This document shows, one piece after another, positions 1 to 15,243 of a DNA stretch of 22,378 nucleotides. Under the pieces are notes generated by a model. The model did no database searches. It was not told the origin of the DNA and saw nothing but the letters and a program-made list of their open reading frames with translations. Position 1 is the stretch's first letter. Each line of letters starts with the position of its first letter. Origin of the DNA: a virus; IMG/VR virus record IMGVR_UViG_3300000477_000010, positions 1 to 22,378 of that record; one strand, 5' to 3'. Made by a program: the position numbers and the translations under genes.

Positions 1-21
1 AAGGCTGTTTGTGATAGAATG

Positions 22-84
22 TTCTGAGTTGTTAGAAGGTTCCGAAAGTTATGAGTTTGCTGAGTTTTCAGAAAATTAAGAGGG
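22..84. repeat. 9-bp degenerate tandem array (left edge)
   Basis: Seven consecutive 9-mers fit without an indel: TTCTGAGTT, GTTAGAAGG, TTCCGAAAG, TTATGAGTT, TGCTGAGTT, TTCAGAAAA, TTAAGAGGG. Read in the frame open from the window edge (base 2) to the TAA at 77-79 the array encodes a Ser-Glu-X tripeptide repeat, so it could be the end of a repeat protein that starts outside the window. No independent coding evidence is visible. Confidence 0.7.
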
Positions 85-96
85 TAGACACTTAGT

Positions 97-303
97 TTAC
101 CGAAAATTGAGAACTGTCTGTTAATTCGGAAGGTGTCTCGTGTTCGTAATCGTCCGTGGGTTCGGACTTGTCCGCGAGTTGAGAACTGTCTGTTAATTCG
201 GAAGGTTCGGGATTGTCTGAACTTTCGGTAAATTCGCCCCGTTCGGAGTGTTGGGAGGGTTCAGCACCTTTCGAAAGTTACGAGTTGTCCGAAAATTGGG
301 GTA
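97..303. repeat. 9-bp degenerate tandem array, 23 units
   Basis: From 97 to 303 the sequence divides into 23 successive 9-mers with no insertion or deletion; typical units are ATTCGGAAG, GTTCGGACT, TGTCCGCGA, GTTCGGGAT, TTTCGGTAA and GTTCGGAGT (consensus about GTTCGGAAN). A block of about three units starting TTGAGAACTGTC occurs at 107-134 and again, identically over 28 bases, at 179-206, exactly 72 bp (8 units) later. In the Ser-Glu-X frame there is a TAA (148-150) and a TGA, so this array is not one intact gene. Confidence 0.85.
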
Positions 304-327
304 CAGAATTTTCTGACAATTACAAAC

Positions 328-347
328 AATCTTCGATTGGCGGATTC
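328..347 (+). promoter_or_regulatory. Shared upstream element of cassette 1 promoter
   Basis: AATCTTCGATTGGCGGATTC lies 11 bp upstream of the -35 box. A near-identical 20-mer (differences confined to the middle) lies at 2267-2286, 21 bp upstream of the -35 of the second cassette. The 10-bp difference in distance keeps the element on the same face of the helix. It is probably an operator or activator site; the factor is unknown. Confidence 0.5.
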
Positions 348-358
348 AAGTTTACCCC

Positions 359-387
359 TTGATTTTGAACGTCTTTTATTATATAAT
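359..387 (+). promoter_or_regulatory. sigma70/sigA promoter of cassette 1
   Basis: TTGATT (359-364), 17-bp spacer, TATAAT (382-387), in AT-rich DNA. Transcription would start near 394 and run through the 19-bp repeat leader into the 59-aa ORF and the first HTH gene, ending at the terminator at 1347-1396. Spacing and hexamers match the bacterial housekeeping consensus well. Confidence 0.7.
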
Positions 388-423
388 TATTATAGACGAT
401 AGAACGAAATATACTAATAACTT

Positions 424-575
424 AGAAATCTTCGACAAACTTATAAATCTTCTAAAGCTTATACAATCTTTAGAATCTTATATAAGATTCAGAATTATCT
501 CGAACCTTGACAACTTTATACAATCTTCTACTAAATTCAGAAGACTATCGTCCTTTCCGAATCTTGTCGAATATT
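424..575. repeat. 19-bp degenerate tandem array, 8 units
   Basis: Eight successive 19-mers fit with no indel, beginning AGAAATCTTCGACAAACTT at 424. Most units have AATCTT or a one- or two-base variant at positions 4-9 and a second AACTT/AGCTTA-like word near positions 14-18, so each unit is a pair of about 9.5-bp half-units. The array fills the untranslated leader between promoter 359-387 and the 59-aa ORF. A 79-codon frame spans this stretch but begins inside the -35 box and is low-complexity, so I treat it as a by-product of the repeat. Confidence 0.8.
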
Positions 576-594
576 CTGAAAAGGGGGTGAAATT

Positions 595-774
595 GTGAAA
601 CGTCAGAAAATTATAGACGAAACGTTAATTAAGCTAATACGTAGCTTTCTGAATCATGTCGAAGTAATAGAAAATTCGAGCGTATTAGCAGAATTGGACG
701 ATTTCGAAAATTCTGATCAGCTTTACGAAGATTTTATAAATGTTCAGAAACATATACTAGATTCAGAAAAATAG
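595..774 (+). CDS. Small acidic hypothetical protein (59 aa), cassette 1
   Basis: GTG start at 595 is preceded by AAAGGGGGTG at 581-590 with a 4-base gap. The frame runs 59 codons to TAG at 772-774. The product is helical-looking, with an N-terminal basic stretch (KRQKIIDETLIKLIRSFLNH) and an acidic second half ending VQKHILDSEK; no signal peptide, membrane segment or known domain is recognised. It is the first gene behind promoter 359-387 and is followed, after another 19-bp repeat leader, by the HTH gene at 959. Codon use is very AT-rich (ATA, TTA, GAA). Cassette 2 also has a gene of about this size (57 aa) but it lies after its HTH gene, and the two proteins share no clear similarity. The strong ribosome site is the main support for it being real. 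Confidence 0.55.
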   Translation: MKRQKIIDETLIKLIRSFLNHVEVIENSSVLAELDDFENSDQLYEDFINVQKHILDSEK

Positions 775-794
775 ATAAGCTTATATAAAATTAA

Positions 795-945
795 GAATCT
801 TGTATAGAATTTAGAATCTTGTCGAATACTACGTAAAGGGGGTGATATATGAATACTATCTAATATTAAGAATCTTGTCGACAATTCTGAATCTTGGCGA
901 ACCTTCAGAAACTTGTAGATAATGGCGAATAAAACTACGATTCGA
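795..945. repeat. 19-bp degenerate tandem array in HTH1 leader
   Basis: Two units at 795-813 and 814-832 (GAATCTTGTATAGAATTTA, GAATCTTGTCGAATACTAC) and, after a Shine-Dalgarno-like interruption, five more at 851-869, 870-888, 889-907, 908-926 and 927-945, all starting GAAT or GAAA. The unit is the same as in 424-575 and 1281-1375, in a register that starts on GAAT. Confidence 0.8.
835..863 (+). promoter_or_regulatory. Strong ribosome site with a 4-codon ORF
   Basis: AAAGGGGGTG (835-844) is followed 4 bases later by ATG AAT ACT ATC TAA (849-863). It is either a leader minigene or a decayed gene start. It sits about 115 bp before the HTH1 ATG. The cassette 2 leader has AAAAGGGGGTGG at 2421-2432, about 110 bp before the HTH2 ATG and also without an ORF, so the signal has been kept in both paralogous leaders. 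Confidence 0.45.
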
Positions 946-958
946 AAGGACGATAATA

Positions 959-1264
959 ATGTCTAAGATTAATAAGAGTCAGAAAATGAGAGAGATATTT
1001 GAAAATAACGAAGATATAACTATAAAAGAAATAGCTGACGAAGTTGAAGTACGCTATGCTTTCGCTTATCAAGTAATAAGACGATATTGTGACAAAAACG
1101 AATTAGAGATGCCAACAGAAAATACCGAAAATACTAAAAAAGAGCGAATTATAGAACTATATGAAGAAGGCTATAGTATCGCTGATTGCTCAAAAGAAGT
1201 TGATACTAACTATTCGTACGCTTGGAAAGTCGTTGACGATTATAGAAAGTCTAAAGAATCGTAA
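959..1264 (+). CDS. Tandem helix-turn-helix DNA-binding protein, copy 1 (101 aa)
   Basis: The small protein is made of two HTH-like repeats. Repeat 1 (about residues 6-43) has KEIADEVEVRYAFAYQVIRRY and repeat 2 (about 62-97) has ADCSKEVDTNYSYAWKVVDDY; the shared pattern is Y-[FY/S]-A-[YW]-[QK]-V-[IV]-x-x-Y at the end of each recognition helix. The IA-x-x-(L/V)-G-V-x-Y arrangement is typical of small phage and bacterial HTH regulators of the resolvase/sigma-like fold. The start is the ATG at 959 behind GAAAGGA at 941-947. By hand alignment the paralogue at 2538 is roughly 60-65% identical. This copy uses AT-rich codons (AGA, ATA, GAA) while copy 2 uses CGG, CCG and CGA. Repeat arrays flank the gene on both sides and a terminator follows. 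I infer, without proof, that it binds these repeats and acts as a regulator or segregation/origin-binding factor. Confidence 0.75.
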   Translation: MSKINKSQKMREIFENNEDITIKEIADEVEVRYAFAYQVIRRYCDKNELEMPTENTENTKKERIIELYEEGYSIADCSKEVDTNYSYAWKVVDDYRKSKES

Positions 1265-1280
1265 TAGACGATAGTCTTCT

Positions 1281-1375
1281 GAATACTAGATAATATTCTG
1301 AATACTAGATAATATTCAGAATATTAGCTAATAGTAAGAATCTTGTCGAAGTTGAGGAATCTTGTAGAAGATTCC
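1281..1375. repeat. 19-bp tandem array, 5 units, after HTH1
   Basis: Five exact 19-base frames start at 1281, 1300, 1319, 1338 and 1357. The first two differ only at the last base (GAATACTAGATAATATTCT / ...TTCA), and the later ones drift to GAATCTTGTCGAAGTTGAG and GAATCTTGTAGAAGATTCC. The last two units form the two arms of the terminator hairpin that ends the cassette. Confidence 0.9.
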
Positions 1376-1396
1376 TTGACTTCGGCATTTTTCTTT
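1347..1396 (+). terminator. Intrinsic terminator of cassette 1
   Basis: The left arm at 1347-1363 (CGAAGTTGAGGAATCTT) pairs over 17 bp with 1368-1384 (AAGATTCCTTGACTTCG), with two G-U wobbles and a GTAG loop. A T-tract (TTTTTCTTT, 1388-1396) follows. It lies about 80 bp after the HTH1 stop codon. The hairpin is assembled from 19-bp repeat units. Confidence 0.8.
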
Positions 1397-1434
1397 ATTA
1401 TCGGAAAATTCACCACAGTTGGTGGGTGGCGCGT

Positions 1435-1599
1435 TTCGGAACGTTCAGAATTTTCGGCTAGTTCGAAGTTTTCGGTAGGTTCGGAGTTTTCAGAATATTC
1501 GGGACCAACTAAAACAGTTGAAATTGTTTTGGAGTTTTCCGAAGGTTCGGAGTACACACAATTTTCAGAAAATTCGTACTTCTCGAAAGGTTCGGTATC
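1435..1599. repeat. 9-bp tandem array, palindromic core TTCNGAA
   Basis: Eight units at 1435-1506 (TTCGGAACG, TTCAGAATT, TTCGGCTAG, TTCGAAGTT, TTCGGTAGG, TTCGGAGTT, TTCAGAATA, TTCGGGACC) and seven at 1537-1599 are in exact 9-base register, separated by about 30 bp that do not fit. Because TTCNGAA is self-complementary, both strands are open and encode Ser-Glu-X tripeptide repeats (+ strand to 1639, - strand 1557-1324). Neither frame has a convincing ribosome site, and the + frame starts inside the terminator hairpin region, so I call repeat rather than gene. Confidence 0.85.
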
Positions 1600-1740
1600 T
1601 TTGTATCCCCACCTAAGTCTCGAGGTTTGGGACGGGTAATTGATGGGGAATACTGATTTATCTAAATTTTCGGTAAATTCGGTGTTTACGTAACGTTTAG
1701 AAAATTCGGTGACGTGACGCTACCCGTTTTATTACCAACT

Positions 1741-1869
1741 AACTAGGTTGGTTATATTTCCGGGCTGCTAATATTAATAACTTACTAGGTTGGTTATTGA
1801 AAAGGGCTGGGAGTTTTCGGAATATTCAGCTCCACCCGGCGAATATTAATTACTTACTAGGTTGGTTAT
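1741..1869. repeat. Three copies of CTAGGTTGGTTAT element
   Basis: Copies end at 1755, 1797 and 1869. The second and third share 28 bases (1770-1797 and 1842-1869), starting AATATTAAT(A/T)ACTTACTAG, with one mismatch, 72 bp apart. The first copy is preceded by ACCAAC, giving a small inverted repeat ACCAAC-N-GTTGGT. Each copy is followed by a GGGC(C)TG island. Function unknown. Confidence 0.75.
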
Positions 1870-2086
1870 TTGTCGGGCCTGGACGTTTGTAGAATATTCG
1901 GAATCTTTCGCCGCCCGGGACTGTGAATATTCAGAATCTTTCACTCCCCACGTTCCCCACCCGGTGTAGGTGGCGAACTAATTCTATTCTTTTGGGCTAA
2001 GCTTCCGCAATTTTCATAACTTTCGGTAAATTCGGTAAGTACGTCATCTGAGTCACCGAGTATTCCTCGAGGGATACGTAATCAAC

Positions 2087-2110
2087 GCGGTTTACGCGAG
2101 ATTAAGCCTC
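2087..2110. repeat. GCGGTTTACGCG-GATTAAGC repeat family
   Basis: A related 23-24 base element occurs at 2087-2110, 3345-3367 and 3470-3493 with core G(C/T)GGTTTA, then CGCG or GGAG, then (A/G)GATTA(A)GC followed by a C-rich end. The copies at 2087 and 3470 differ at only a few positions. All lie in gene-free DNA. Function unknown. Confidence 0.65.
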
Positions 2111-2266
2111 GGGGGGACTACGAATACCACGTTTTGGGACGTTTGAACTATTCGGAGTTTTCGGAAAATTCGCGGGACGGGCTGCTAATACCACGCGGTG
2201 GCGGCGGGAAAGTTAGGTTTGAGCGCGCTCAGCTCTGTCGGACGGAATCTTCGGAATCTTTAACGA

Positions 2267-2286
2267 AATCTTCCAATGGCGGATTC
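2267..2286 (+). promoter_or_regulatory. Shared upstream element of cassette 2 promoter
   Basis: AATCTTCCAATGGCGGATTC matches the element at 328-347 at all but a few central bases. It is 21 bp from the -35 box here and 11 bp there, a one-turn difference. Confidence 0.5.
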
Positions 2287-2307
2287 GCTATTTCGGGCAG
2301 AAACCTC

Positions 2308-2336
2308 TTGCAATCGGGGCTTGCTTATTATATAAT
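2308..2336 (+). promoter_or_regulatory. sigma70/sigA promoter of cassette 2
   Basis: TTGCAA (2308-2313), 17-bp spacer, TATAAT (2331-2336) followed by ATAAATA. The same TATAATATAAATA string is used in the late promoter at 3770. It drives the second HTH gene and the 57-aa ORF, ending at terminator 3182-3239. Confidence 0.75.
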
Positions 2337-2342
2337 ATAAAT

Positions 2343-2537
2343 AACATCAAAAAAGCCCCACCACGGACATTGACAACCACATAGCGGTTTGGGCGGGTTT
2401 ACAACCCCAACCGGAACAACGAAAAGGGGGTGGTAATAACCTAGCGCCGGGAATGTTATGAAAATTGGATTGAATTCGGTGGGTTGTACAACATTCCGAA
2501 CCTTGGCGAAAATAACAAACGAAAGGTGATAACCACA
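2343..2537 (+). other. Long structured leader of cassette 2
   Basis: About 195 nt separate the promoter from the HTH2 start. It contains a potential hairpin (GGGTT-TAC-AACCC enclosed by CGGTT/AACCG, about 2383-2412), an orphan ribosome site AAAAGGGGGTGG (2421-2432) with no following ORF, and GAACCTTGGCGAA near 2500, which is the same word found in the 19-bp array of cassette 1 (about 889-902). The two leaders are therefore related in layout despite different base composition. Confidence 0.5.
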
Positions 2538-2864
2538 ATGTCTAAAGTTAATAAAAGTCAACAAATGCGGGATCTTTTCGTTGAAAATCCGGAAAAAGAT
2601 ATTTCCGAAATCGCCGACGACGTTGGTGTCCGATATGCATTCGCTTACCAAGTTATCCGAAGATTCGTCGACAAACGGGAAGATATGGAAATGCCGACCA
2701 AACGGAACAATGGGGAACCGTCGAAAAAAGATAAGATGATCCAAATGTACGAAGATGGCGCGTCAATTGCCGATTGTGCCAAAGCGGTCGATACGAATTA
2801 TAGCTACGCTTGGAAAACGATCGACGATTACCGGAAAAAACAACAATCCGAAGATACCGAATAA
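2538..2864 (+). CDS. Tandem helix-turn-helix DNA-binding protein, copy 2 (108 aa)
   Basis: The start is the ATG at 2538, behind GAAAGGTGAT with about 8 bases of spacing; a longer frame from 2484 has no ribosome site. Like copy 1 it has two HTH-like repeats: SEIADDVGVRYAFAYQVIRRF (about residues 23-43) and IADCAKAVDTNYSYAWKTID (about 77-96). The stretches VRYAFAYQVIRR and VDTNYSYAWK are identical in both copies, so the presumed recognition helices, and likely the DNA site, are conserved. The linker (KRNNGEPSKK) and the C-terminus (KKQQSEDTE) differ. It is the first gene of cassette 2. It may be a transcription regulator of both cassettes, or a binder of the 9/19-bp arrays; the sequence alone does not decide. 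Codon use is clearly richer in GC than in copy 1. Confidence 0.75.
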   Translation: MSKVNKSQQMRDLFVENPEKDISEIADDVGVRYAFAYQVIRRFVDKREDMEMPTKRNNGEPSKKDKMIQMYEDGASIADCAKAVDTNYSYAWKTIDDYRKKQQSEDTE

Positions 2865-2899
2865 CGGGGCTTACGGAAGATTCCGAACATTGTACAATC

Positions 2900-2925
2900 G
2901 GGGTGGGGGATTCGTCCCCCATCCC
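2900..2925 (+). other. Strong hairpin with TTCG tetraloop
   Basis: GGGGTGGGGGA (2900-2910) pairs with TCCCCCATCCC (2915-2925) over 11 bp (one G-U) around a TTCG loop. No T-tract follows on either strand, so it is not a classical terminator. Placed between HTH2 and the 57-aa gene, it may protect or separate the two parts of the transcript. Confidence 0.6.
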
Positions 2926-2998
2926 ACAATTACAAATCTTCGCGAACATTCATCACATTCGCGATGATTACCACAATTACAAATAGGGGGTTGTTCAT

Positions 2999-3172
2999 GT
3001 GAATCGTAAATATTTCGTTCCGTTCGATATTACCCCAATACCGGAAGACGTGTTATTGGACCTTGTTCGGGAATATATGGACGACGAAGATGATTTCCGG
3101 AAGTTCGAAGACGACTTTGATAAATTGGCTTCGGAATACGCGCGAAAGAACGGTTACATGGAAGAAGTCTGA
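2999..3172 (+). CDS. Small acidic hypothetical protein (57 aa), cassette 2
   Basis: GTG at 2999 is preceded by AGGGGGTTG at about 2985-2993. An ATG at 2997 is out of frame and runs straight into TGA. The frame gives 57 aa ending at TGA 3170-3172. The protein has a run of acidic residues (EYMDDEDDFRKFEDDFDKLA) and looks like one or two amphipathic helices. No domain is recognised. It is the last gene of cassette 2, just before the terminator. Overlapping frames on both strands here are shadows. Confidence 0.55.
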   Translation: MNRKYFVPFDITPIPEDVLLDLVREYMDDEDDFRKFEDDFDKLASEYARKNGYMEEV

Positions 3173-3181
3173 AAATTCGAT

Positions 3182-3239
3182 ACCGTTGCGGGAATTCCGT
3201 ACCATGGGAAATGGTCGGTCCCGCGGCGGTTTTCTTTTT
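3182..3239 (+). terminator. Intrinsic terminator of cassette 2
   Basis: The outer stem ACCGTTGCGGGA (3182-3193) pairs with TCCCGCGGCGGT (3219-3230), 12 bp with two G-U pairs. The inner stem is ACCAT-GGGAA-ATGGT extended by CCG/CGG. It is followed directly by TTTCTTTTTG (3231-3240). It begins 9 bp after the stop codon of the 57-aa gene. Confidence 0.85.
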
Positions 3240-3670
3240 GTTATGAATTTTCGGAAGATTTGGCAAACCATTAGAAAAGAATTAAGGCTAAAGCTGTCGC
3301 CATTTTCGGAAAGTTGTGAATTCTATATAAGGATTGTAGGCCTCGCGGTTTAGGAGGGATTAGCGCCCGCGGGACTGCCCTATCCGGAAGGTTGGAAAAG
3401 GTCTGAGGTTGTGGAAATTTGTGAAGTATCGGAAAATTGTCTGTGCCGGAGTCAATAATTCTAACCAGAGTGGTTTACGCGGGATTAAGCGCCGGTGGTT
3501 GTGGAAATTTGTGAAGTATCGGAAGGTTTGGTAAGTGAGTTTCCTGAGTCATATGAATTTTCGGGAAATCATCTCAAGGCCCCGGGAGACTCCGAAACTT
3601 TCTGAATTTTCTGAAAATCACCTCGAGCGCCCGGGGGACACAGGAATATCAGAGACACATCGAGGTGTTG
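3240..3670. repeat. Gene-free direct-repeat spacer before late promoter
   Basis: No supported gene is present. A 28-base block starting GGTTGTGGAAATTTGTG is identical at 3407-3434 and 3497-3524, 90 bp (10 x 9) apart. A 37-base block starting TGAATTTTC and ending CCGGG(A/G)GAC is repeated imperfectly at 3554-3590 and 3603-3639. Two copies of the GGTTTA...GATTA(A)GCGCC element are at 3345 and 3470. The 9-bp TTCGGAA periodicity is still visible in pieces (e.g. 3517-3560). Confidence 0.7.
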
Positions 3671-3709
3671 GAGGGGTACAGAGGAAGTTTTTGAACCCTC
3701 TGTAACCTC
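3671..3709. other. Hairpin upstream of late promoter
   Basis: TACAGAGG (3677-3684) pairs with CCTCTGTA (3697-3704), and GAGG (3671-3674) with CCTC (3706-3709) across a small internal loop. T-rich DNA follows, including a tandem TCTTGTTATA at 3708-3717 and 3718-3727. It may act as a weak terminator shielding the late promoter, or the T-rich part as an UP-like element. Confidence 0.4.
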
Positions 3710-3746
3710 TTGTTATATCTTGTTATATTTCTTTGCATTTCTGTAC

Positions 3747-3775
3747 TTGCTATTCTGTGGATTATCTTGTATAAT
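3747..3775 (+). promoter_or_regulatory. Late (structural operon) promoter
   Basis: TTGCTA (3747-3752), 17-bp spacer, TATAAT (3770-3775). The predicted start near 3782 gives a short leader to the small terminase gene. The shared upstream element of the two HTH cassettes is absent, so this promoter is probably regulated differently. Confidence 0.7.
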
Positions 3776-3825
3776 ATAAATAGAAGCAGAAAGAGATATT
3801 CCCCTGCGGGAGGAGGTGCTCAGTG

Positions 3826-4788
3826 ATGGTCGACGGAAGTGAAACTTATGTAGGAAACGACACGGAGGATGCAGGATTTACCAAAGCGGTTTTGGAGGAT
3901 CTTGCGGAGAATATCAATAAGCTACGTTCGAATATCCCGGTTAATGAGCATATAGGATACCCGTCGGCATTACTGGACCCTACAGTTGTCGCAGAGGAGG
4001 TTCTATGTCTGCCACCGGGTAGAATGCAGGAACGTTCTAACCTTCCAGCTAACAAGGAAACTGCACTGGAGATTCTCCAGGAGGCAGCCATCCCGTTAGA
4101 TCTCAGCGAGGGTTATCCCACGGTAAACGGTTTACCCGTCTGGGAACGATTGGCGGGTGAGATTCTCACGTACTTTAAGATGTTCAAGTTCTACCGTGAT
4201 CTTCCCTTACACGGGTACAGGCGAGCCATCTACCGTGTAGCGGAGACTTTCGAAACTCAACCGTATAAGGTGAACGCGATCAAGGATATCTACCAGTGGG
4301 ATGTCCGAATTAAGGCGTTTGACGAGTTTCGGGAGGTTCAGCAGGAGGTTCAGAGAAACCACTACATTCAGGATATGGAAAGTGAGCATCGTGAGGCGGC
4401 TCAGGACCTCTTCGCCACGTGTATGAAGTATTTCCATGAGAATCTGGAGATGCTCGACCAGAAGACCGCGCTGAAATGGGCAGAGATGGCTGTGGAGTTG
4501 GAGCGCCTATCACTGGGCCTCGATCCCAAAAAGCCCGACACAGAGAATGTTCCTGAGAATATCCAGCAGACCCTGATACAGGTAAATGAGGCAGGTCCGG
4601 GGTCTTCCGTTGCAGACCATGAGGAACGTAACCGGATGCAGAACATCATGGATATCCTGAATGATGCAGGGGTTGTGGATGTTCCTGTGGATGACGATGA
4701 GAATGACTCGGAGGATTCTGGTGATAACGATGTTTCGGGGTCTAACCGTTTGGATAATATAGATGGTACAGGTGATTCTAATGAATGA
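3826..4788 (+). CDS. terS: Terminase small subunit
   Basis: It would recognise phage DNA and load the large terminase for packaging. The core, at about residues 118-170, has the sequence pattern of terminase small subunits: RDLPLHGYRRAIYRVAETF followed by IKDIYQWDVRIKAFDEF, a helix-turn-helix-like region with the conserved W-x-W/R-A-x-x-D feature. A helical oligomerisation region follows (about 180-235). The last 40 residues are an acidic low-complexity tail (DDDENDSEDSGDND). At about 320 aa it is longer than many TerS proteins because of N- and C-terminal extensions. AGGAGGTG (3811-3818) is 7 bases before ATG 3826; GTG 3823 just upstream is the alternative start. The gene overlaps the next by 8 bases (ATGAATGA), consistent with TerS-TerL coupling. 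Confidence 0.8.
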   Translation: MVDGSETYVGNDTEDAGFTKAVLEDLAENINKLRSNIPVNEHIGYPSALLDPTVVAEEVLCLPPGRMQERSNLPANKETALEILQEAAIPLDLSEGYPTVNGLPVWERLAGEILTYFKMFKFYRDLPLHGYRRAIYRVAETFETQPYKVNAIKDIYQWDVRIKAFDEFREVQQEVQRNHYIQDMESEHREAAQDLFATCMKYFHENLEMLDQKTALKWAEMAVELERLSLGLDPKKPDTENVPENIQQTLIQVNEAGPGSSVADHEERNRMQNIMDILNDAGVVDVPVDDDENDSEDSGDNDVSGSNRLDNIDGTGDSNE

Positions 4789-6184
4789 GCCCACTATACA
4801 GCCCGTTAGCGAACAGCTAAGACACCAACGTGATAGTGGGCGTTTTGTTATTAAAGATTTGGAGCTCCCACAGCTCAATGAGCTGCAGGAGGCGCTGACC
4901 CCCAAACTTACTAAGTTCATCCCTCACCAGCCTTTTCCGAAACAGGCCGCTTTCTTGTTGCTCCCTCACCGAGAAGCATTTTACGGAGGTTCGGCTGGTG
5001 GCGGGAAGAGTGATGCCCTTCTGATGGGAGCTCTCCAATATGTAGATATTCCTGGATACTCCGCCATCCTGTTTCGTAAGACTCACGCGGAGTTGAAACT
5101 GGCAGGAGCACTCATGTTTCGAGCTAAGGAGTGGCTGACATCGTATATCGACAGTAAGGAAGTTCACTGGTCTGAACAGGATAAGGTGTTCACATTTCCG
5201 AGTGGAGCAACCGTGGCTTTTGGGTATCTGGAGAATGACCGAGATATGTACAGGTATCAGTCCGCGGAGTTCCAGTATATAGGGTTCGATGAACTTACAC
5301 ACTTCAAGGAGCGTCACTACACGTACCTCTTCAGTAGGTTGAGGAGACTCCAAGGTGTGAATATTCCGTTGAGGGTTCGATCTGCCAGTAACCCAGGAGG
5401 TACAGGACATGATTGGGTGAAGGAGAGATTCCTGATAGAGGGACCGGATGAAGGTAGGATCTTCGTTCCCGCGACCCTGGATGATAATATTCACCTGGAT
5501 CGTGAAGAGTATGTGCAATCCCTCCAGGAGCTCGACCCTGTAAGACGGGAGCAGCTACTGAATGGTGATTGGGATGTCAGACCGCAAGGCACCATGTTCC
5601 AGCGTGAATGGTTTGAAATTGTTCAGGATACACCAGCTTACGCCGCCCATGTACGGTACTGGGATCTGGCAGCCACCGAGCAGAGTGATACTAATCGCGA
5701 TCCTGACTGGACTGTAGGGGTTCTGATCTCCATGAGTGAGGGTACGTACTTCATTGAGGATGTTAGGAGAGTACGGAAGAGTGCAGCAGGGGTGGAGGCT
5801 CTTGTTAAGCAGACTGCTCAGCTGGACGGTACAGGTGTATCCATATGGATTGAACAGGAGCCCGGTTCAGCAGGGAAGAGTATTGTCAGTCACTACCAGC
5901 GGAATGTATTACCGCAGTTTAATGTGAAAGGGGATAAGGTTACAGGCTCCAAGGTCATCCGTGCGAATCCTCTGAGCGGGGCCGCGGAAGCAGGTAACGT
6001 CAGAATAGTTCGAGGATCGTGGAATAAGGCGTTTCTGGATGAGATTGAGCTGTTCCCTGAAGGAAACCATGATGATCAGGTAGACGCAGCGAGCGGCGCT
6101 TATAATAAAGTAGGTGAGAGTGGGATAAGCAGGATAGAACCCGAGGGAATGGAGTTACTGCGGAACGCACGGTTGTACAGTTGA
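4781..6184 (+). CDS. terL: Terminase large subunit
   Basis: This is the packaging ATPase and headful nuclease. Counting from ATG 4781 (467 aa), the Walker A motif is GGSAGGGKS at 69-77, the Walker B motif is YIGFDEL at 167-172 with the catalytic Glu, and the coupling motif SASNPGG is at 201-207. The C-terminal RNase H-like nuclease has WDLA with Asp 295, IEQE around Glu 358, and GNHDDQVDA with Asp 431/432/435. Length and motif order fit the family. The start is set by AGGTGA ending 7 bases before the ATG and by the overlap with the small subunit stop; the frame could be read from 4763, but that has no better site. Confidence 0.95.
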   Translation: MNEPTIQPVSEQLRHQRDSGRFVIKDLELPQLNELQEALTPKLTKFIPHQPFPKQAAFLLLPHREAFYGGSAGGGKSDALLMGALQYVDIPGYSAILFRKTHAELKLAGALMFRAKEWLTSYIDSKEVHWSEQDKVFTFPSGATVAFGYLENDRDMYRYQSAEFQYIGFDELTHFKERHYTYLFSRLRRLQGVNIPLRVRSASNPGGTGHDWVKERFLIEGPDEGRIFVPATLDDNIHLDREEYVQSLQELDPVRREQLLNGDWDVRPQGTMFQREWFEIVQDTPAYAAHVRYWDLAATEQSDTNRDPDWTVGVLISMSEGTYFIEDVRRVRKSAAGVEALVKQTAQLDGTGVSIWIEQEPGSAGKSIVSHYQRNVLPQFNVKGDKVTGSKVIRANPLSGAAEAGNVRIVRGSWNKAFLDEIELFPEGNHDDQVDAASGAYNKVGESGISRIEPEGMELLRNARLYS

Positions 6185-6199
6185 GAGGAGGTGTATGCT

Positions 6200-6553
6200 A
6201 TGAGGAAACTTTTGGTATTGGTACTGGTGTGTGCACTTATCCTCGGTACTGGGGCGATGGTTGTAGGAGCTGAGTCGAGTGAAGAAGGTGCGCTCCCCAT
6301 CAGCGGTGCAGTCACCTTTGAGTATGATACCGCAGTAGGTGCGATACTCGGTGACCTGAATGTGTACTACCCTGTAGGATCACTGAAGATTGGTGCGCAG
6401 TATCCTTTTGTTACTGCTAGTGGACTAACTAACCCTGTGGATGTGTACAGCCTTTACACCGAGCTGGAAATTGACGAGGGTTTTTCTGTATATATCAGTG
6501 AGGTCAGGCATGATACGTTGGAACCGGTGTTTGGAGTTGCTGTTGAGTTTTAA
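6200..6553 (+). CDS. Small exported beta-rich protein, outer-membrane-like
   Basis: A 117-aa protein starts at ATG 6200, 6 bases after GAGGAGGTG. Residues 1-24 (MRKLLVLVLVCALILGTGAM, then VVGA) form a clear signal peptide with a likely signal peptidase I site after GA. The mature part of about 93 aa alternates polar and hydrophobic residues in about six strands (AVTFEYDTA, LNVYYPV, SLKIGAQYPF, VYSLYTELEI, FSVYISEV, VFGVAVEF) and ends in Phe, as outer-membrane beta-barrel proteins recognised by BamA do. Six strands are fewer than a monomeric barrel needs, so it could oligomerise or be periplasmic. An export gene between terminase and portal is unusual and suggests a moron: superinfection exclusion or surface alteration. 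If truly outer-membrane, the host is diderm. The exact function is unknown. Confidence 0.65.
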   Translation: MRKLLVLVLVCALILGTGAMVVGAESSEEGALPISGAVTFEYDTAVGAILGDLNVYYPVGSLKIGAQYPFVTASGLTNPVDVYSLYTELEIDEGFSVYISEVRHDTLEPVFGVAVEF

Positions 6554-6570
6554 TCGACCGCGAGTGTCTA

Positions 6571-6627
6571 CCCCGCGCGCGCGTCTATATTTGAATCAAT
6601 GCTGCGCATATTATTTTCCTCATGGTA
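6571..6627 (+). repeat. Three-copy boundary element, copy A
   Basis: CCCCGCGCGCGCG, then TCAATGCTGCGC (6596-6607) and CTCATGGTA (6619-6627). The same components occur at 16085-16131 and 21462-21510. Here the ATG of CTCATGGTA opens a 10-codon frame (6622-6654) ending in the TGA that overlaps the portal ribosome site, which could couple translation to the portal gene. Confidence 0.55.
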
Positions 6628-6658
6628 CTAACGACGTCTTTAGGTAGGAGGTGATGAG

Positions 6659-8203
6659 GTGTTTGACCGCATACGGGATGTTCTCGGAGAGCTGCGAGGA
6701 TGGCGCCCGATCTTGCGCACGAGTAGAAGGAACTTAGCGGAGTACACGTTACACAGTAAGAAAAGAGTTGACCCAGAGCTGGCTCGCCAGTTGTACTACA
6801 ATGAAAATGATGAGTACAAGCTGGGTGGGGCTTTTCCTAAACCGATAATCAACGCAGTAGTCGGTTTTATGGGAGTACCTGAGTTTGATGTGCCTGGAGA
6901 TATGGCGGCGGAGGAGGTCTTGAAAGACTTCGCGGGCAGACATTATGAGGTGATGCAGAGAACGCACCGGGACGCCATTCGGGACGGCAGATGTTACGTA
7001 CGTCTAACCCGTGAGTATGTCGAGGATGACATCCTGTACCCCGAACGGGATGTTGTGATAAATTATCACATTCTCCCAGATGAGAGTGTGGTGGAGGTTA
7101 CCAAGGATCCTGTGACTCAGAAACCCGTGGAGTATGTTATTGAAACTCAACACACCGTGGAAGGTAGAACAGCTACAGTAACACAGATAATCACACCGGA
7201 CAGTATTGAGGTGACAGGTTCAAGTGGCCTTCCAGACGGTCTTAGTGGTGTGTATGAACAGCCCTGGGGATTCATTCCTATTGTACCATTCACGAATGAG
7301 GATGAAGCTTACACAGATGAACCTCGGAGCGACCTGGAAGGTGTTGAGCCGTACATTAAGGCGTATCATGACGTATTCAAACACGCCATCCAGGGGAGTA
7401 AGTTACATTCCACTCCGAGATTGAAACTTCATGTGAAGGACCTCGCTGCTTTTCTGAGGAATAACTTCGGTGTAGCGGACCCGAAGGAGTTCATCCGCAA
7501 GGAGAAGAAGATAAACCTCCAGGATAAGGATCTACTCATATTTACCCAGGAGGATGAGGATGCACAGTTTGTAGAAGCTCAAAGCGCTACAGGGAATGCG
7601 GAGGCACTTCTACACCTCATATTCTACTGTATAGTGGAACACTCCGAGACACCTGAGTTCTGTTTCGGCGCGCACCTCCCTGCGAACTACGCGAGTGTGA
7701 AGGAGCAGATCCCTGTACTGATTCGGCGTGTAGGAAGGAAGAGGGCAGGATTTGATACATCCTGGTCGACTCTAGGAAGATATGTACTGGCGATGACCGC
7801 GTTGGCTGAGGTACGTTCATTCGATACTCATGAGGTGCAACTACAGTGGGACGAGATAGATCCACGTGATAAGAGTGATAAAGCTCAGGAGCTCACCAGG
7901 GTAGTATCGGCACTCACTGCCGCAATTGACCGCAACATCGTGAGTAGACAGAGTGCGGTGGATTACCTTGGTACGTTGGTAGACACTATGCGGCCATATG
8001 AGGTTGAGGATGCTGAAGGTGAATGGGACAGGATTCGCCGGGACATCGAACAGTTGGATAATCTGATACAGGATGTTGGAGATAATGGTGTACCGGTTAC
8101 TGAGATGAATACGGGTGAACTGAATGATGTGGATGTAGAGCGGGTATTGGCTGAGGCGGCGCGGAAGCGAGGTGTAGGATATGAATACCAAAACACAGAG
8201 TAG
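6659..8203 (+). CDS. Portal protein
   Basis: Forms the dodecameric portal ring at the packaging vertex. At 514 aa it is a usual portal length. The N-terminal region has YKLGGAFPKPIINAVVGFMG (about residues 53-73), the typical segment before the portal wing, followed by helical stretches and RPYEVEDAEGEWDRIRRDIE near the C-terminus. The overall pattern is like the SPP1 gp6/A118 group, recognised by pattern and by position directly after the terminase. GTG start at 6659, 5 bases after AGGAGGTG; a lone ATG in the spacer (6654) is out of frame. Its 3' end overlaps the next gene by 23 bases. Confidence 0.8.
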   Translation: MFDRIRDVLGELRGWRPILRTSRRNLAEYTLHSKKRVDPELARQLYYNENDEYKLGGAFPKPIINAVVGFMGVPEFDVPGDMAAEEVLKDFAGRHYEVMQRTHRDAIRDGRCYVRLTREYVEDDILYPERDVVINYHILPDESVVEVTKDPVTQKPVEYVIETQHTVEGRTATVTQIITPDSIEVTGSSGLPDGLSGVYEQPWGFIPIVPFTNEDEAYTDEPRSDLEGVEPYIKAYHDVFKHAIQGSKLHSTPRLKLHVKDLAAFLRNNFGVADPKEFIRKEKKINLQDKDLLIFTQEDEDAQFVEAQSATGNAEALLHLIFYCIVEHSETPEFCFGAHLPANYASVKEQIPVLIRRVGRKRAGFDTSWSTLGRYVLAMTALAEVRSFDTHEVQLQWDEIDPRDKSDKAQELTRVVSALTAAIDRNIVSRQSAVDYLGTLVDTMRPYEVEDAEGEWDRIRRDIEQLDNLIQDVGDNGVPVTEMNTGELNDVDVERVLAEAARKRGVGYEYQNTE

Positions 8204-10070
8204 TATGAGTATAACGAACGGTGCAGCACGTAACGCCACGGTACAGGCGGGAGAGATTTCACAGGGTCCTGTGGTTGGTGAGGTACGTGCGGATTTAGGT
8301 AGGGAAGATATCCCTTTGTCAGACTCCGCAGCTGCGGCTGTTGAGGTACTAACAGAGGGTGATGATAATCCCTGCTGGGTCACAGTGGAGATTCTGGAAG
8401 GTCCTGGAAATCACGGGAACTACAAACGCGGTGCGATCCGTGATATCGTAAGCGGTGTGAATGAGAGTGAGCCGATGGGTCACCTAGGACACAGGAAACC
8501 GAAGGATCTACCATTCGAGTTCCCGGATCCTACAACTCACTGGTTTGCAGCTGAGATGGTCAACAAGCAGGACACTGATGGGAATCCGCGGGCAGCTGCG
8601 GTTATTTATGGTTTGATTGATAAGGCGTTTCCTGACCTCCGTCGATGGGTGAAAGCTCGGAGAATTAAGGAGGTGAGTATATACGGGAAGCCGAGGTATG
8701 AGGCAGGTACACGGAATGTGGTAGGTTACGACCTGATCAGTATTGACTGGACTCCTCGGGAACGAAGTGGAATGGAAACTAACCTGTTGTGGACCTCCGA
8801 GATGTCGTGGACATCAGAGGTGAGGGGTGATTACGTGGATCCGACTGATGTGGTAGATGACCTGGTTGCAGGTGAATATGATGGGAGTCTTGATGAGGCA
8901 ATGAACCTGGTTGTTCGTGGAGTACAGGAGAAGTGGGCGGAGACCCCAAACTATGTTCGCCCTTATCGCATCTTCCCGGAGTATGTTATTGTGAAGTATG
9001 ACAACTACAGAGAGAATGCACAGGGCCTGTGGAAAGTCCCTTATGAGCTTGTGGAAGAGGATGGGGAAAAGGACCGTGTGGAGTTCGGAGACGCGGTTGA
9101 AGTGGTAGAACACAGGACCTACGAAGAGGTTACGGGTGATGATGGAGACGCAGATATGGGTGCTGAGATAGACGCACAACACACGTCGGAGGTGAGTGAA
9201 CTGCAGAACCAAACGGTTGAGGAGAAGTTGGCGGATGTTCGGGCAGCGGTTGCTAAGGGTGAATGTTCTCTCTGTGATATAGTTAAGGAACTCGGTATTA
9301 CCGGTGAGATGGTGCTTAATGCACTGAAAGATGACGAGCGCATCTCCACACTGAAGAATGCAGCGGAGATTGGTAAGAAGCTCTCCAAGAAGCTGGATAT
9401 CACTGAGGAAATGGAACTCGACGAGGCACTCGACCTCGCTGGTGAGATGGCTGATCTGTACTACAGTACCAATGATGAGGGTGAGGGTGAGGTCAACACC
9501 GATGAGGCAGAGGGTGACGGTGAAGAGGTAGATGGTGAACAGGAAGAGGTTGAGGAAGAGGTAGAGGTCAGAGGAGAGGTAGGGGAAGAGGACGTCGAGG
9601 GTGTAGATGGTGAAGGAGATGGCTCGGAAGAAGAGGGTGCGAAGGGTGAACAGGAAGATAACTCTGACACTGATGGAGGATCCAGTGGCGAGGGCGAAGA
9701 CCCTGAGGAAGGCTCGGATGCTTCTGGAGAACAGGAAGAGTCACAGGAAGATGAAGGAGAAACTGGAGAAACTGAGAAAGGTGCAGAGGTCGAAGGAGAA
9801 CAGGATGCGACCGGTGAGGTAGATGTGTCGGACCTTATTGCACGGAGAGTTAACGGTGAACAGGCGCAGAAGTTGGTGGAGAGGGTGCTACAGGTTGAGG
9901 ATGGGGCACCTGAGGATGTAGTGGTAGGAGAGATTGAGAATCTCCTGGAAGATGATGAGATTCGGAGTATGATCTCCAAGCTACACACCGACGGACCTGT
10001 TATTAAAGGAGATAAAGGTACTAAGAGCGGCAAGTTCCGTTCTGGTAGAGTGAGAACCGTTCGGATATAG
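8181..10070 (+). CDS. Prohead protease-scaffold fusion
   Basis: At 629 aa it is probably a capsid maturation protease joined to a scaffold. The N-terminal domain has GHLGH (residues 100-104), FPDPTTHWFAAEM (114-126), KEVSIYG with Ser 166, and DLISIDWTP (184-192). This His-then-Ser arrangement followed by an (I/L)SIDW strand matches the layout of HK97-like (S78-type) prohead proteases, but I cannot confirm the catalytic triad. Residues about 345-425 form helices. Residues about 430-560 are an extreme acidic low-complexity tract (Glu/Asp/Gly/Ser). The final 30 residues become basic (KGDKGTKSGKFRSGRVRTVR), as in capsid-binding scaffold tails. Start ATG 8181 follows GAGGTG and lies inside the portal 3' end; ATG 8205 is possible. 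The position between portal and capsid supports the assignment. Confidence 0.65.
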   Translation: MNTKTQSSMSITNGAARNATVQAGEISQGPVVGEVRADLGREDIPLSDSAAAAVEVLTEGDDNPCWVTVEILEGPGNHGNYKRGAIRDIVSGVNESEPMGHLGHRKPKDLPFEFPDPTTHWFAAEMVNKQDTDGNPRAAAVIYGLIDKAFPDLRRWVKARRIKEVSIYGKPRYEAGTRNVVGYDLISIDWTPRERSGMETNLLWTSEMSWTSEVRGDYVDPTDVVDDLVAGEYDGSLDEAMNLVVRGVQEKWAETPNYVRPYRIFPEYVIVKYDNYRENAQGLWKVPYELVEEDGEKDRVEFGDAVEVVEHRTYEEVTGDDGDADMGAEIDAQHTSEVSELQNQTVEEKLADVRAAVAKGECSLCDIVKELGITGEMVLNALKDDERISTLKNAAEIGKKLSKKLDITEEMELDEALDLAGEMADLYYSTNDEGEGEVNTDEAEGDGEEVDGEQEEVEEEVEVRGEVGEEDVEGVDGEGDGSEEEGAKGEQEDNSDTDGGSSGEGEDPEEGSDASGEQEESQEDEGETGETEKGAEVEGEQDATGEVDVSDLIARRVNGEQAQKLVERVLQVEDGAPEDVVVGEIENLLEDDEIRSMISKLHTDGPVIKGDKGTKSGKFRSGRVRTVRI

Positions 10071-10155
10071 ATTAGGACTGAACATGTGCGGTTGTAAGTA
10101 ATAACAGAAGCAACAGTAGAAGTCTGAGAGTGTTAAGTTCATAGGGGGTGCCTCA

Positions 10156-10905
10156 ATGAGTACTGATCTGTATGCGGGTCAACGATACAACTTCGTGGAC
10201 TCCACTGAGTACATGCACACGAGACCAGAAGTGGGTGAGTGGGATGCGATAGCAGTAACCATCCCAGAGGGAATGGAAGTGAAGGCGACTGAACCTGTAC
10301 TCATACAGGGATTTTTTGGTTTTGCATTACAGGACTCCTGTGAGGACGAGGAAGATACGATTGGAGTCCAAATGAAACCTGCTGAGTACGAGGTGGGAGA
10401 AGATCATATCAACACCTCCCAGGATTTCAAGAAGGGCAAAGATGTGTACTGGGACACCGCTAACAAGAGGTTGACTGAGTCCTCGGCACGTTGGGTTAAT
10501 GACATTTCGTATTCTTCTTCGGCGGGTACCATGCAGAGTAACTTGGAGACTGCCCTGGATGCTTTAGGGTTTGCGGATAAGTACTCCATCAGTGAGGTTG
10601 GCGAGGTTTACACCATCGAGTTTGACATTTGTGTAGGAGAAACTCGACTGGTTGCGGACTTCGATGGTTTGAGTATCTCTGGTGAAGTGTCCTTAGAGCG
10701 TACCCAGAACTTCGATCCTGATGAAGAGGAAGAGGAGATTTGGGAACTCGACATTGGCGATGCTACCGACAACGACTTCGCACTCGGTGTGGACTGTTTG
10801 TGGGTAGGTAAGGTAAGTGTTAAGAAGGACGATGACAATGTAGTTTGGTTCTTGCTGGCGAGCTTCAGTTACCAGCCCACACCTGTGGAGACTACTGAAG
10901 ACTAA
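10156..10905 (+). CDS. Capsid decoration-type protein, copy 1
   Basis: 249 aa, start ATG 10156 after AGGGGGTG. The two ends resemble small phage decoration proteins of the DUF2190 type: an N-terminal beta part with GKDVYWDTANKRLTES (95-110), and a C-terminal part with LGVDCLWVGKVSV then DNVVWFLLASF (209-237). Between them, about residues 123-190, sits an inserted domain with TMQSNLETALDALG followed by VYTIEFDICVGETRLVADFD. This pattern (Leu-rich helix, then Y-T-I-x-F and a beta strand pair) resembles a beta-sandwich module found in several phage virion proteins. It ends with an acidic tail (VETTED). The next gene is a paralogue with about two thirds identical residues. It probably binds the outer capsid; family names are from memory of pattern, not a search. 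Confidence 0.65.
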   Translation: MSTDLYAGQRYNFVDSTEYMHTRPEVGEWDAIAVTIPEGMEVKATEPVLIQGFFGFALQDSCEDEEDTIGVQMKPAEYEVGEDHINTSQDFKKGKDVYWDTANKRLTESSARWVNDISYSSSAGTMQSNLETALDALGFADKYSISEVGEVYTIEFDICVGETRLVADFDGLSISGEVSLERTQNFDPDEEEEEIWELDIGDATDNDFALGVDCLWVGKVSVKKDDDNVVWFLLASFSYQPTPVETTED

Positions 10906-10953
10906 ACAGTAAGAGCCGTGAAGCACTACATGGCTTAGGCAAGTATGGAATCG

Positions 10954-10984
10954 AGTAAGAGTAAAACTATGTAAGAGTAAAACT
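10954..10984. repeat. 17-bp repeat, 2 copies, in gene junction
   Basis: AGTAAGAGTAAAACT occurs at 10954-10968 and, less its first base, at 10971-10984, just before the ribosome site of the second decoration gene. Confidence 0.6.
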
Positions 10985-11008
10985 GAGTAAGTGGCAGGAG
11001 GTGCCAAA

Positions 11009-11758
11009 ATGAGTACGGATCTGTATGCCGGTCAGAGGATTAACGTGGTAGACTCCACGGAGCATATGCATACGCGTCCTGAGGTTGGCGAATGGGACGC
11101 CATTGCGGTAACTGTTCCCGAGGGGACTGCTATCACTGCAACTGAGCCGGCGCTGATACAAGGCTTTTTCGGGTTCGCTCTGCAGGACTCGTGTGAGGAT
11201 GACAAGGACACCATCGGGTTGCAGATGAAGCCCGCTGAGTATGAAGTTGGAGAAGATCAGATCGATGATAGTAAGGACTTCCTAAAAGGTGAAGATGTAT
11301 ACTGGGATCAGGGCAACAAGGAACTGACTACTGAATCGGCACTGTGGGAGACAGCAATTGATCATAGCGACACTCCCGCAACCATGATCAGTAACTTGGA
11401 AACGGCACTTGACGCTCTTGGGTTTGAGGATCAGTACGAGATTGACGAAGAAAACGAAGTGTACACTATCACTTTCGATATCAGCGCGGGTGAGACGCGT
11501 CTGATAGCGGATCTCGACGGCCTCTCGGTCACCGGTGAAGTTACCTTTGAACGTACCCAGGATTATGACCCAGATGAAGGAGACGAAGAGATCTGGGTAC
11601 TCGACATGGACGACGGTACTGGTGGAGACTTCGATCTTGGTGTAGATCCCTTATGGGTTGGAGTTGTCAGTGTTGAGAAGGATGACGATAACGTAGTTTG
11701 GTTCTTGCTCGCGTCCTTCACCGAACAGCCTGTTACCTCAGAGTACAGCGCAACCTGA
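11009..11758 (+). CDS. Capsid decoration-type protein, copy 2
   Basis: 249 aa, ATG 11009 after AGGAGGTG with 5-base spacing; the frame from 10991 includes the ribosome site and is not preferred. It is a tandem duplicate of the preceding gene with the same architecture: N-terminal MSTDLYAGQR and MHTRPEVGEWDAIAVT are nearly unchanged, GEDVYWDQGNKELT is at 95-108, the inserted domain (about 123-190) has SNLETALDALGF and VYTITFDISAGETRL, and the C-terminal segment has DNVVWFLLASF. Differences cluster in the inserted domain and the C-terminus (PVTSEYSAT), and two Cys of copy 1 are lost (ICV to ISA, VDC to VDP). Retention of both copies suggests two distinct positions on the capsid or different ligands. 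Confidence 0.65.
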   Translation: MSTDLYAGQRINVVDSTEHMHTRPEVGEWDAIAVTVPEGTAITATEPALIQGFFGFALQDSCEDDKDTIGLQMKPAEYEVGEDQIDDSKDFLKGEDVYWDQGNKELTTESALWETAIDHSDTPATMISNLETALDALGFEDQYEIDEENEVYTITFDISAGETRLIADLDGLSVTGEVTFERTQDYDPDEGDEEIWVLDMDDGTGGDFDLGVDPLWVGVVSVEKDDDNVVWFLLASFTEQPVTSEYSAT

Positions 11759-11768
11759 TAAACACTCC

Positions 11769-11897
11769 AACTGAGTACTGCAACTAGGTACTGCGGCTGA
11801 GTACCCCAGTTAAGTACCCCAGTTAAGTACCTCAATTGATGAAGGCGGTAATTGATGCAGGTGGTAATTGATGAAGGCGGTAATTGATGCAAGTGGT
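11769..11897. repeat. Compound minisatellite: 13-bp x5 then 16-bp x4
   Basis: 13-mers at 11769, 11782, 11795, 11808 and 11821 (AACTGAGTACTGC, AACTAGGTACTGC, GGCTGAGTACCCC, AGTTAAGTACCCC, AGTTAAGTACCTC) lead directly into 16-mers at 11834, 11850, 11866 and 11882 (AATTGATGAAGGCGGT alternating with AATTGATGCAGGTGGT or GCAAGTGGT). The array fills the gap before the capsid gene. Alternation in the 16-mers shows a 32-bp higher-order duplication. Confidence 0.95.
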
Positions 11898-11925
11898 ATA
11901 GGATAATATTTCGGAGGTGACCAAT

Positions 11926-12966
11926 GTGAGTGTTCGTGTATGGAGTATAGATAACATCAAGGAGCAGCGGAAACAGCGTAAGATTGAGGAGGAAATCCCG
12001 TTTACGGTTGCGGGTGAGCAACGATCCGTAACAAAGACAATGGTGAACGGCGAGATGCAGATGCCAGAGGTTACCAAGCCTCTTGGCGAGCTAATGACCA
12101 CCGACTCCGATATGGTAGAACTGATGGAGAAGGTAGTTCTGGATGTTGAGTTGGGTAGGGAACGAGTACCCACGGTATATGGGGCAATTTATGACCGTAT
12201 CGTAGATGCTAACTTCCCGAGGGTCTTGGAAGCTAAGTGGGCTCTGGAAGGTCTGGTAGTCTTCTTGGAACGTCTTGAAGGTGGAGACGTCAAGATGGGT
12301 ACCGTCGCAGCCGAAGAGGGTCCCATTGCTAAGATCCGTAACTGGGCTGCAGGTTTTGAGTACACAGAGGAGATGCTCCTGTATGACCACACCTTTGACA
12401 TGGAGATGTTGAACCGTGCATTTGGTGAAGCATACAACGCGCTCCTGAACCACATCCACCTGCACCCGATCATCGACGTCAACTACACGGGGGATAATCA
12501 GACATCTCCGCAGGGCGAGAACGGTGAGCCCTTCTCCGTGCAGCTGGCGAAGACTATCAAGCAGGGTCAGAAGGATGCAGCCAATCACCGCAGGCCCGCA
12601 GATACCCTGTTACTCTCGCGGAAGTATGAAGTGGATCTTGAGGATGCAATGGAACGTCAGTGGTATGATGGCACTGAATACAGGCCTCTTACAGGCCTCG
12701 ACAACATCGTCTTCTACGATGGCTGGAAGACCACTGTAGGACGTAAAGAGTACGTCTACGAGGGTTGCCCGGACAACACTGCATACCTGATCAGGTCTCA
12801 GCGAGGCTTCAAGGAACTGGTTAAGCACGGCCTGATGATTGATGGTCAGCCTGGCCCGATCCGTAGGCTGGTTGAGGAGTGTGTTGTCGGGCGGACTTAC
12901 CGCGGAATCTTCGCAGCCGTGGAAGAGAACGTCCAGGAAGTGGATATAACGGAGCAGACTGGCTAG
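11926..12966 (+). CDS. Major capsid protein
   Basis: Shell subunit, 346 aa from GTG 11926. GGAGGTGA (11913-11920) is 5 bases upstream; the ATG at 11924 runs directly into TGA, and GTG 11917 lies inside the ribosome site. The N-terminus is helical and charged (IKEQRKQRKIEEE), as in delta-like regions of HK97-fold capsids. The C-terminal half has RPADTLLLSRKYEVDLEDAM, LTGLDNIVFYDGW and GIFAAVEENVQEVDI, consistent with the P-domain and A-domain end of HK97-fold capsid proteins. Position after protease-scaffold and decoration genes and before the connectors supports the call. No separate delta cleavage site could be identified. Confidence 0.75.
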   Translation: MSVRVWSIDNIKEQRKQRKIEEEIPFTVAGEQRSVTKTMVNGEMQMPEVTKPLGELMTTDSDMVELMEKVVLDVELGRERVPTVYGAIYDRIVDANFPRVLEAKWALEGLVVFLERLEGGDVKMGTVAAEEGPIAKIRNWAAGFEYTEEMLLYDHTFDMEMLNRAFGEAYNALLNHIHLHPIIDVNYTGDNQTSPQGENGEPFSVQLAKTIKQGQKDAANHRRPADTLLLSRKYEVDLEDAMERQWYDGTEYRPLTGLDNIVFYDGWKTTVGRKEYVYEGCPDNTAYLIRSQRGFKELVKHGLMIDGQPGPIRRLVEECVVGRTYRGIFAAVEENVQEVDITEQTG

Positions 12967-13001
12967 ATATGGTTGATGTGGGTGAAAAGGAGGAGTAGGA
13001 C

Positions 13002-13376
13002 ATGAAAGTTACTAAGGAAAATAGAAAACTGCTCCGAAATCTCCTCCACGAGACTATACCGGAATACGGCGCCGTAGAGGATACACGATTTGAGGATGAT
13101 GTACTGGATCTCCTTCTGGAGGGTGCGGATAACATCTACCGTGCAGCCTCAGAGGGTTGGCTGATGAAAGCTGGAATGTACCAGGAGGAGATGCAGGATC
13201 TGAGAACAACCCGTGTCGGTATGGAGACCTACGAGATGACCCGTCTAATGGATAGATACGATTACGCTGAATCCATGTCACTACGCTACAAGGAGCGGGC
13301 AGAGCAGGGAGGGAGCCTCACAGGCACCGGTACCCTCTCAGCCCTTATGCTCAGTGCAAAGCGAGACCCCGTGTAG
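13002..13376 (+). CDS. Head-tail adaptor (connector) protein
   Basis: 124 aa, ATG 13002 after AAGGAGGAGT. An all-alpha protein: residues 27-58 (FEDDVLDLLLEGADNIYRAA, then SEGWLMKAGMYQ) match the usual adaptor helix pattern in which a long helix ends in A-A-x-x-G-W-x-x-K-A, seen in gp6/gp15-type adaptors of HK97 and SPP1. Adaptors bind under the portal and form the first ring of the connector. It follows the capsid gene, as expected. The family is assigned from pattern. Confidence 0.65.
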   Translation: MKVTKENRKLLRNLLHETIPEYGAVEDTRFEDDVLDLLLEGADNIYRAASEGWLMKAGMYQEEMQDLRTTRVGMETYEMTRLMDRYDYAESMSLRYKERAEQGGSLTGTGTLSALMLSAKRDPV

Positions 13377-13416
13377 TTCAGTCACCAGAAAGCCCTAACT
13401 GGAAGGAGGATTGCGG

Positions 13417-13857: not shown

Positions 13858-13864
13858 GCAGCAC

Positions 13865-13935: not shown

Positions 13936-13956
13936 ACTGAGAAGGAGGTGGACGAT

Positions 13957-15175: not shown

Positions 15176-15243
15176 CACCGTGAATGGTTTGAAGAGGTAC
15201 ACCATAAATTACCAATTTAAGTTTGGGAGGGGGAAAGGTTAAT

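Follow-up and report, generated by a model that had tools for sequence, protein, structure and literature searches.

Phase-Locked 9-bp Repeat Arrays in a Phage Genome as Candidate Operators for the Host Regulator CodY

The Locus and Its Phage

The left end of a virus sequence in IMG/VR raises the question of why DNA that holds no gene should keep a strict 9-bp rhythm. The record, IMGVR_UViG_3300000477_000010, has 27,089 bases and is classed as linear; the window referred to below is the whole stretch that was analysed, its positions 1 to 22,378. An initial annotation of this DNA had pointed to 23 consecutive 9-mers without indels at 97-303 and attributed their strong divergence at strict spacing to selection on spacing or to continual regeneration. 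The answer favoured here, with a probability of roughly 0.6 and built on sequence comparison, is that the repeats would be phage-borne operator arrays for host CodY, the nutrient-sensing master regulator of the Bacillota, coupling three phage modules to the nutrition of the host.

For the portal and capsid proteins, all matches are to phages of the Bacillota (phiCD27, BalMu-1, the BSP7/BSTP phages and Youna2), which suggests a host in that phylum, the only rank to which it is placed. The large terminase has a wider range of relatives, Methanobacterium phage psiM2 being its first match. Among Bacillota_A genomes, 94 of 119 have CodY. No CodY gene was found in nine virus records (the window's own, six others from IMG/VR, and Bacillus phages P59 and Troll) or in a separate check of four virus records, so the putative binder would be a protein of the host. 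Capsid similarity led to nine related prophages, and a capsid search in viral contigs gave no match. The initial annotation had proposed to look for the array at the same position in related phages; such conservation failed to appear, as the seven stretches around capsid-related prophages held no arrays.

A 9-bp Rhythm Confined to the Left End

The periodicity was assessed without reference to any motif. The column information at period 9 in 97-303 is 123.8 bits, against 17.3 ± 5.0 bits in 1000 dinucleotide shuffles (z = 21), a value that none of the 1000 shuffles reached, while the periods 5, 7, 8, 10, 11, 13 and 14, which are not multiples of 3, gave no signal there. All 23 of the 9-mers keep a single phase, and the count of 23 uninterrupted units stood. 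In the comparison with shuffled controls that had been suggested for this peak, it came out far above them. Within the array, 107-133 is an exact 27-bp duplicate of 179-205, offset by 72 bp, or 8 units. This lends some support to the idea of continual regeneration, and the period-9 result holds when one copy is taken out.

The rhythm belongs to the left side only, as the initial annotation had expected. The core TTCNGAA occurs 34 times in 1-3740, where 3.2 are expected, and once in 3741-22378, where 4.0 are expected. To the right of 3740, the signal at lag 9 is one member of a series at multiples of 3, of codon type. Protein coding does not explain 97-303 either, in agreement with the initial annotation. 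No open reading frame of at least 50 amino acids covers it, and no stop-free frame crosses the array detected at 161-295. A structured RNA was likewise rejected as the identity of the arrays, there being no match to an Rfam family in 1-4000. The 9-bp rhythm is thus a real and unusual element. No named phage element of this form was found here, in line with the initial annotation.

The further arrays listed earlier are all present, with a correction to one of them and an extension of the whole. Seven units of TTCNGARNN lie at 22-84 (phase mean 4.7 of 6 core matches; lag-9 z 4.1). The stretch 1435-1599, reported as one array, holds two registers, phase 4 in 1435-1524 and phase 7 in 1525-1599, the latter with a perfect CodY box, AATTTTCAGAAAATT, at 1560-1574. 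Short arrays follow at 1660-1716 by phase analysis (previously 1672-1716), at 2005-2045 (previously 2011-2045), where a 24-mer at 2009 departs from the double CodY site at 4 positions, and at 2146-2172, and arrays or sites continue to about 3610. In 359-1400 the spacing is mainly 19 bp (9+10). The initial annotation had not included this section, the register break, the three promoters, the sites in other phages or the agreement of the unit with a known operator. Also in 359-1400, there are 5 copies of the 0A-box-like sequence TGTCGAA, where 0.23 would be expected, and they keep step with the 9-bp units; they could be Spo0A sites or merely variant units.

The Repeat Unit and the CodY Operator

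CodY sites are 15 nt long and typically occur in pairs that overlap by 6 nt to give a 24-nt site (PMC10415144), whose consensus has been published as AATTTTCWGAAWWTTCWGAAAATT (PMC9318921). Taken together with its AA/TT arms, the unit TTCNGAANN corresponds to the CodY box AATTTTCWGAAAATT at that same 6-nt overlap, and an array step of 9 bp follows because 15-nt boxes that overlap by 6 nt advance by 9. In 1-3740, CodY-like 15-mers number 4, 10, 28 and 47 at up to 1, 2, 3 and 4 mismatches, against 0, 0.07, 0.7 and 4.1 in shuffles, and one of them is perfect; the remaining 18.6 kb has none. The 24-mer double site is also enriched (37 against 0.75). Within 97-303 itself, 5 15-mers have at most 4 mismatches to the box, against 0.14 in shuffles, and 6 24-mers have at most 8 mismatches to the double site, against 0.04. 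Enrichment is seen in all non-coding sub-blocks, and the density outside the four open reading frames of the region is twice that inside.

The match to CodY was made after seeing the data, and two controls lessen the post hoc risk without removing it. When its letters were permuted into 105 palindromes, the CodY half-site came first, with 28 sites against 6 for the next. In a panel of 16 Bacillota motifs at matched stringency, in which the CodY consensus was the one taken from published work, CodY alone was enriched. The rejected motifs include those of PurR, ArgR, LexA, Rex, CcpA, Fur, GlnR/TnrA, CtsR, HrcA, ComK, PerR, Zur and Spo0A.

The arrays resemble the double CodY operators of Bacillota in their TTCWGAA palindromic core, AA/TT arms, 6-nt overlap with its 9-bp step, tolerance of mismatches to AATTTTCWGAAAATT and location at sigma-A promoters (PMC10415144, PMC9318921). 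They differ from chromosomal CodY sites, which typically come in pairs, in running for up to 23 steps, in being phage-borne, in lying upstream of the promoter rather than on it, and in their base composition: 97-303 is GC-richer than textbook CodY sites, and the central base is G in 10 of 23 units. Set against the near-invariant T15/T15' of the shared CodY half-site, the equivalent T6, which is the best conserved position of the 97-303 units, is kept in 21 of 23 and its partner A10 in 13 of 23. Isolated CodY-like cores number 4-8 per locus, too few to judge the arms around isolated sites.

Promoters and Genes of the Left 3.7 kb

The left 3.7 kb is ordered as array, promoter and two small genes, then the same again, then array, promoter and terminase. 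On the plus strand, TTGNNN-(16-18)-TAWAAT is found only three times, and these are consensus matches rather than mapped promoters: TTGATT-17-TATAAT at 359-387, TTGCAA-17-TATAAT at 2308-2336 and TTGCTA-17-TATAAT at 3747-3775. Each of these sigma-A-like promoters stands 3' of an array, and no CodY-like box overlaps a -35 or -10 of any of the three, which sets them apart from the classical mode of repression by CodY. A box with 1 mismatch, AATTTTCTGACAATT, lies at 307-321, between the main array and the first promoter. Downstream of that promoter, on the plus strand, are a small acidic open reading frame of 59 amino acids (595-774), for which no family was found, and a tandem helix-turn-helix protein of 101 amino acids (959-1264; HTH_23, E 2.4e-6). 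CodY-like sites then recur every 19 bp at 1277-1341 by TRF, with AATATTCAGAATATT at 1311 carrying 2 mismatches.

The second promoter precedes, also on the plus strand, another tandem helix-turn-helix protein (2538-2864; HTH_23, E 2e-6) and an acidic open reading frame of 57 amino acids (2999-3172), again of no family found. The cassette of helix-turn-helix gene and small acidic frame is thus seen twice, at 595-1264 and 2538-3172, with opposite gene order and different G+C. Dispersed CodY-like sites at 3246-3619, among them a 24-mer at 3596-3619 with 2 mismatches to the double site, lead to the third promoter and the plus-strand genes for the small and large terminase subunits (3823-6184; phrog_6299, E 5e-11; phrog_979, E 4e-125).

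Similar Sites in Other Phages

Similar sites are directly observed in other phages of the Bacillota. A scan of viral contigs found the exact 24-nt double CodY site in 17 viral loci. In Bacillus phage Troll (L203, 1548-1571) it stands 2 bp 5' of the -35 of the promoter of ssb, the gene for the single-strand DNA-binding protein, and one of the 17 loci (L183) is 92% identical to Troll over the ssb region. The double site at the ssb promoter is absent in the Troll relatives from other hosts, Goe8, Mater and P59. Bacillus phage P59, an isolate, has boxes of its own, 29 at up to 3 mismatches in 5.1 kb of terminal repeat. These boxes, AATATTCTGACAATT, form doublets with 9-bp steps in two clusters (L225, 2267-2796 and 4577-4924), one of which ends directly 5' of a TTGACT/TATACT promoter. 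A predicted minus-strand coding sequence, P59_026, overlaps one of the clusters and may be spurious. Two further loci, L188 and L196, have 21 sites each at up to 2 mismatches, and two loci of IMG/VR contig 3300009686_000008 have 47 together; such densities give a biased estimate of how frequent these phages are, because most loci were fetched by patterns that contain the motif. On inspection, a blastn match between L188 and Streptococcus phage PH15 was due to ordinary AT-rich DNA with no boxes in it.

Across 13 array loci, the 200 bp upstream of a -35 contain 45% of sites, against 20% of random positions, and there is no enrichment downstream (20% against 22%). The P59 clusters and the Troll double site are like the window in having CodY-like boxes, 9-bp steps inside doublets and a place directly 5' of a sigma-A-like promoter. 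They are unlike its long uninterrupted array in that P59 has its boxes in short groups of two or three, repeated every 38-47 bp, and Troll has a single doublet. The P59 and Troll records do not describe these repeats as CodY sites, and a literature search for CodY sites in phage genomes found nothing.

There are precedents of a related kind. At the early promoters of phi29, Spo0A boxes let a host nutritional and sporulation regulator act on phage promoters, although both the regulator and the motif differ from those considered here. The stoperators of mycobacteriophages are likewise many copies of one operator across intergenic phage DNA; they differ in being asymmetric and bound by the phage's own repressor (PMC9283540), and they have no tandem 9-bp register.

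A Possible Nutritional Switch

Crystal structures show two CodY dimers on overlapping sites in contact across the shared half-site; binding is highly cooperative, and a 1-bp insertion weakens and a 2-bp insertion abolishes the cooperativity (PMC10415144). Single sites may have at least 4 mismatches; such sites may fail alone and yet are bound in an overlapping context (PMC10415144). A phase conserved above sequence is what would be expected here, because cooperative CodY binding demands exact spacing and tolerates poor single sites. The proposed selection on spacing therefore fits well.

From the motif, spacing and location we infer that CodY from the host binds the arrays. Dimers would sit every 9 bp and, by extrapolation, 23 units could carry one spreading cooperative filament, for which exact spacing would matter greatly and the quality of single units would not, and which might act as a steep nutritional switch. 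The phage may in this way read the nutritional state of its host, because the CodY-like arrays precede three phage promoters, two with helix-turn-helix genes and the third with those for terminase. CodY would most likely repress or insulate these modules in a well-fed host and release them when nutrients fall; this direction is a guess, because the boxes stand upstream of the promoters and not on them. If true, the arrays would offer a direct, testable molecular link from host nutrition to phage gene expression in Bacillota, would replace an unexplained rhythm by a structural prediction, namely CodY dimers every 9 bp, and would suggest a reason for the intergenic arrays of several phages of the rumen, the gut and Bacillus. 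A broader and more tentative proposal, to which we give somewhat less than even odds, is that CodY operator arrays, multi-copy and phase-locked, arose independently before the promoters of diverse Bacillota phages, which would read the amino-acid/GTP status of the host through a cooperative CodY filament, with the window as the longest uninterrupted example found here.

Other Explanations

The helix-turn-helix genes within the array region (959-1264 and 2538-2864) bring to mind an operator array for the phage's own protein, serving autoregulation, stoperator-like silencing or partition. The two paralogues are 65% identical overall and fully identical in RYAFAYQVIRR and DTNYSYAWK, the expected places of the recognition helices, and the protein is predicted as a six-helix double helix-turn-helix (pLDDT 86). 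A fold search with this model gave no significant match, however, and no relative was found in 50,697 phage records, including that of P59, where similar boxes are present; matches in viral contigs are short or only 30% identical. One apparent relative, in L079, turned out to be an unrelated HNH-type protein with a short tail in common. Since this explanation also leaves the identity of the motif with the CodY box as a coincidence, we regard it as unlikely. Much the same low standing is given to a neutral, self-propagating satellite, in which TTCNGAANN units expanded by slippage and unequal exchange without function. The exact 27-bp duplication at an 8-unit offset would suit it, as would coding Ser-Glu-X repeats built elsewhere on the same unit and clean TTCNGARWW arrays at 9 bp in Prevotella/Prevotellaceae MAGs (L162, L164, L170, L173, L176 and L182), several of them apparently intergenic. 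CodY was not detected in the three Prevotella assemblies searched (L162, L164 and L170), so a 9-bp repeat can arise without CodY, and for at least some such arrays an origin by slippage is possible. A satellite would not account for units that diverged while their phase did not, for the concentration of sites upstream of promoters, for L061 and L188, where doublets whose length is exactly the 24 nt of the double CodY site are spaced 34-35 bp apart, or for similar sites in unrelated Bacillota phages.

The array region ends just 5' of terS, and recognition by the terminase (pac/cos) or by a replication initiator was considered for that reason. It seems very improbable, as three promoters and four open reading frames are interspersed in the region and the arrays of other phages lie away from the terminase, among the small early genes of the terminal repeat in P59 and in small intergenic stretches in L006 and L061. 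Hardly credible at all is a descent from Ser-Glu-X repeats that once coded for protein. Ser-Glu-X is one possible reading of the unit, and many of the database matches are genes of this type, but a coding array is rejected for 97-303 because of the stops that leave the 161-295 array without an open frame; the core, moreover, is a palindrome that matches either strand, and promoters are interspersed. Bacterial chromosomes offer little of this kind: an exact 4-unit pattern matched only 22 times in about 85,000 genomes, mostly in Ser-Glu-X open frames and in several cases intergenically in Prevotella, which speaks against the arrays as a general chromosomal property, and a near-exact double CodY site was found in 0 of 398 Bacillota_A genomes.

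Elsewhere in the window, other short tandem repeats with periods of 13/16, 15 and 8 bp lie at 11764-11898, 13862-13937 and 15142-15178, between or at the edges of structural genes. Two tandem paralogous genes for proteins of about 250 amino acids, at 10156-10905 and 10991-11758, stand directly 5' of the capsid gene and probably encode head decoration proteins.
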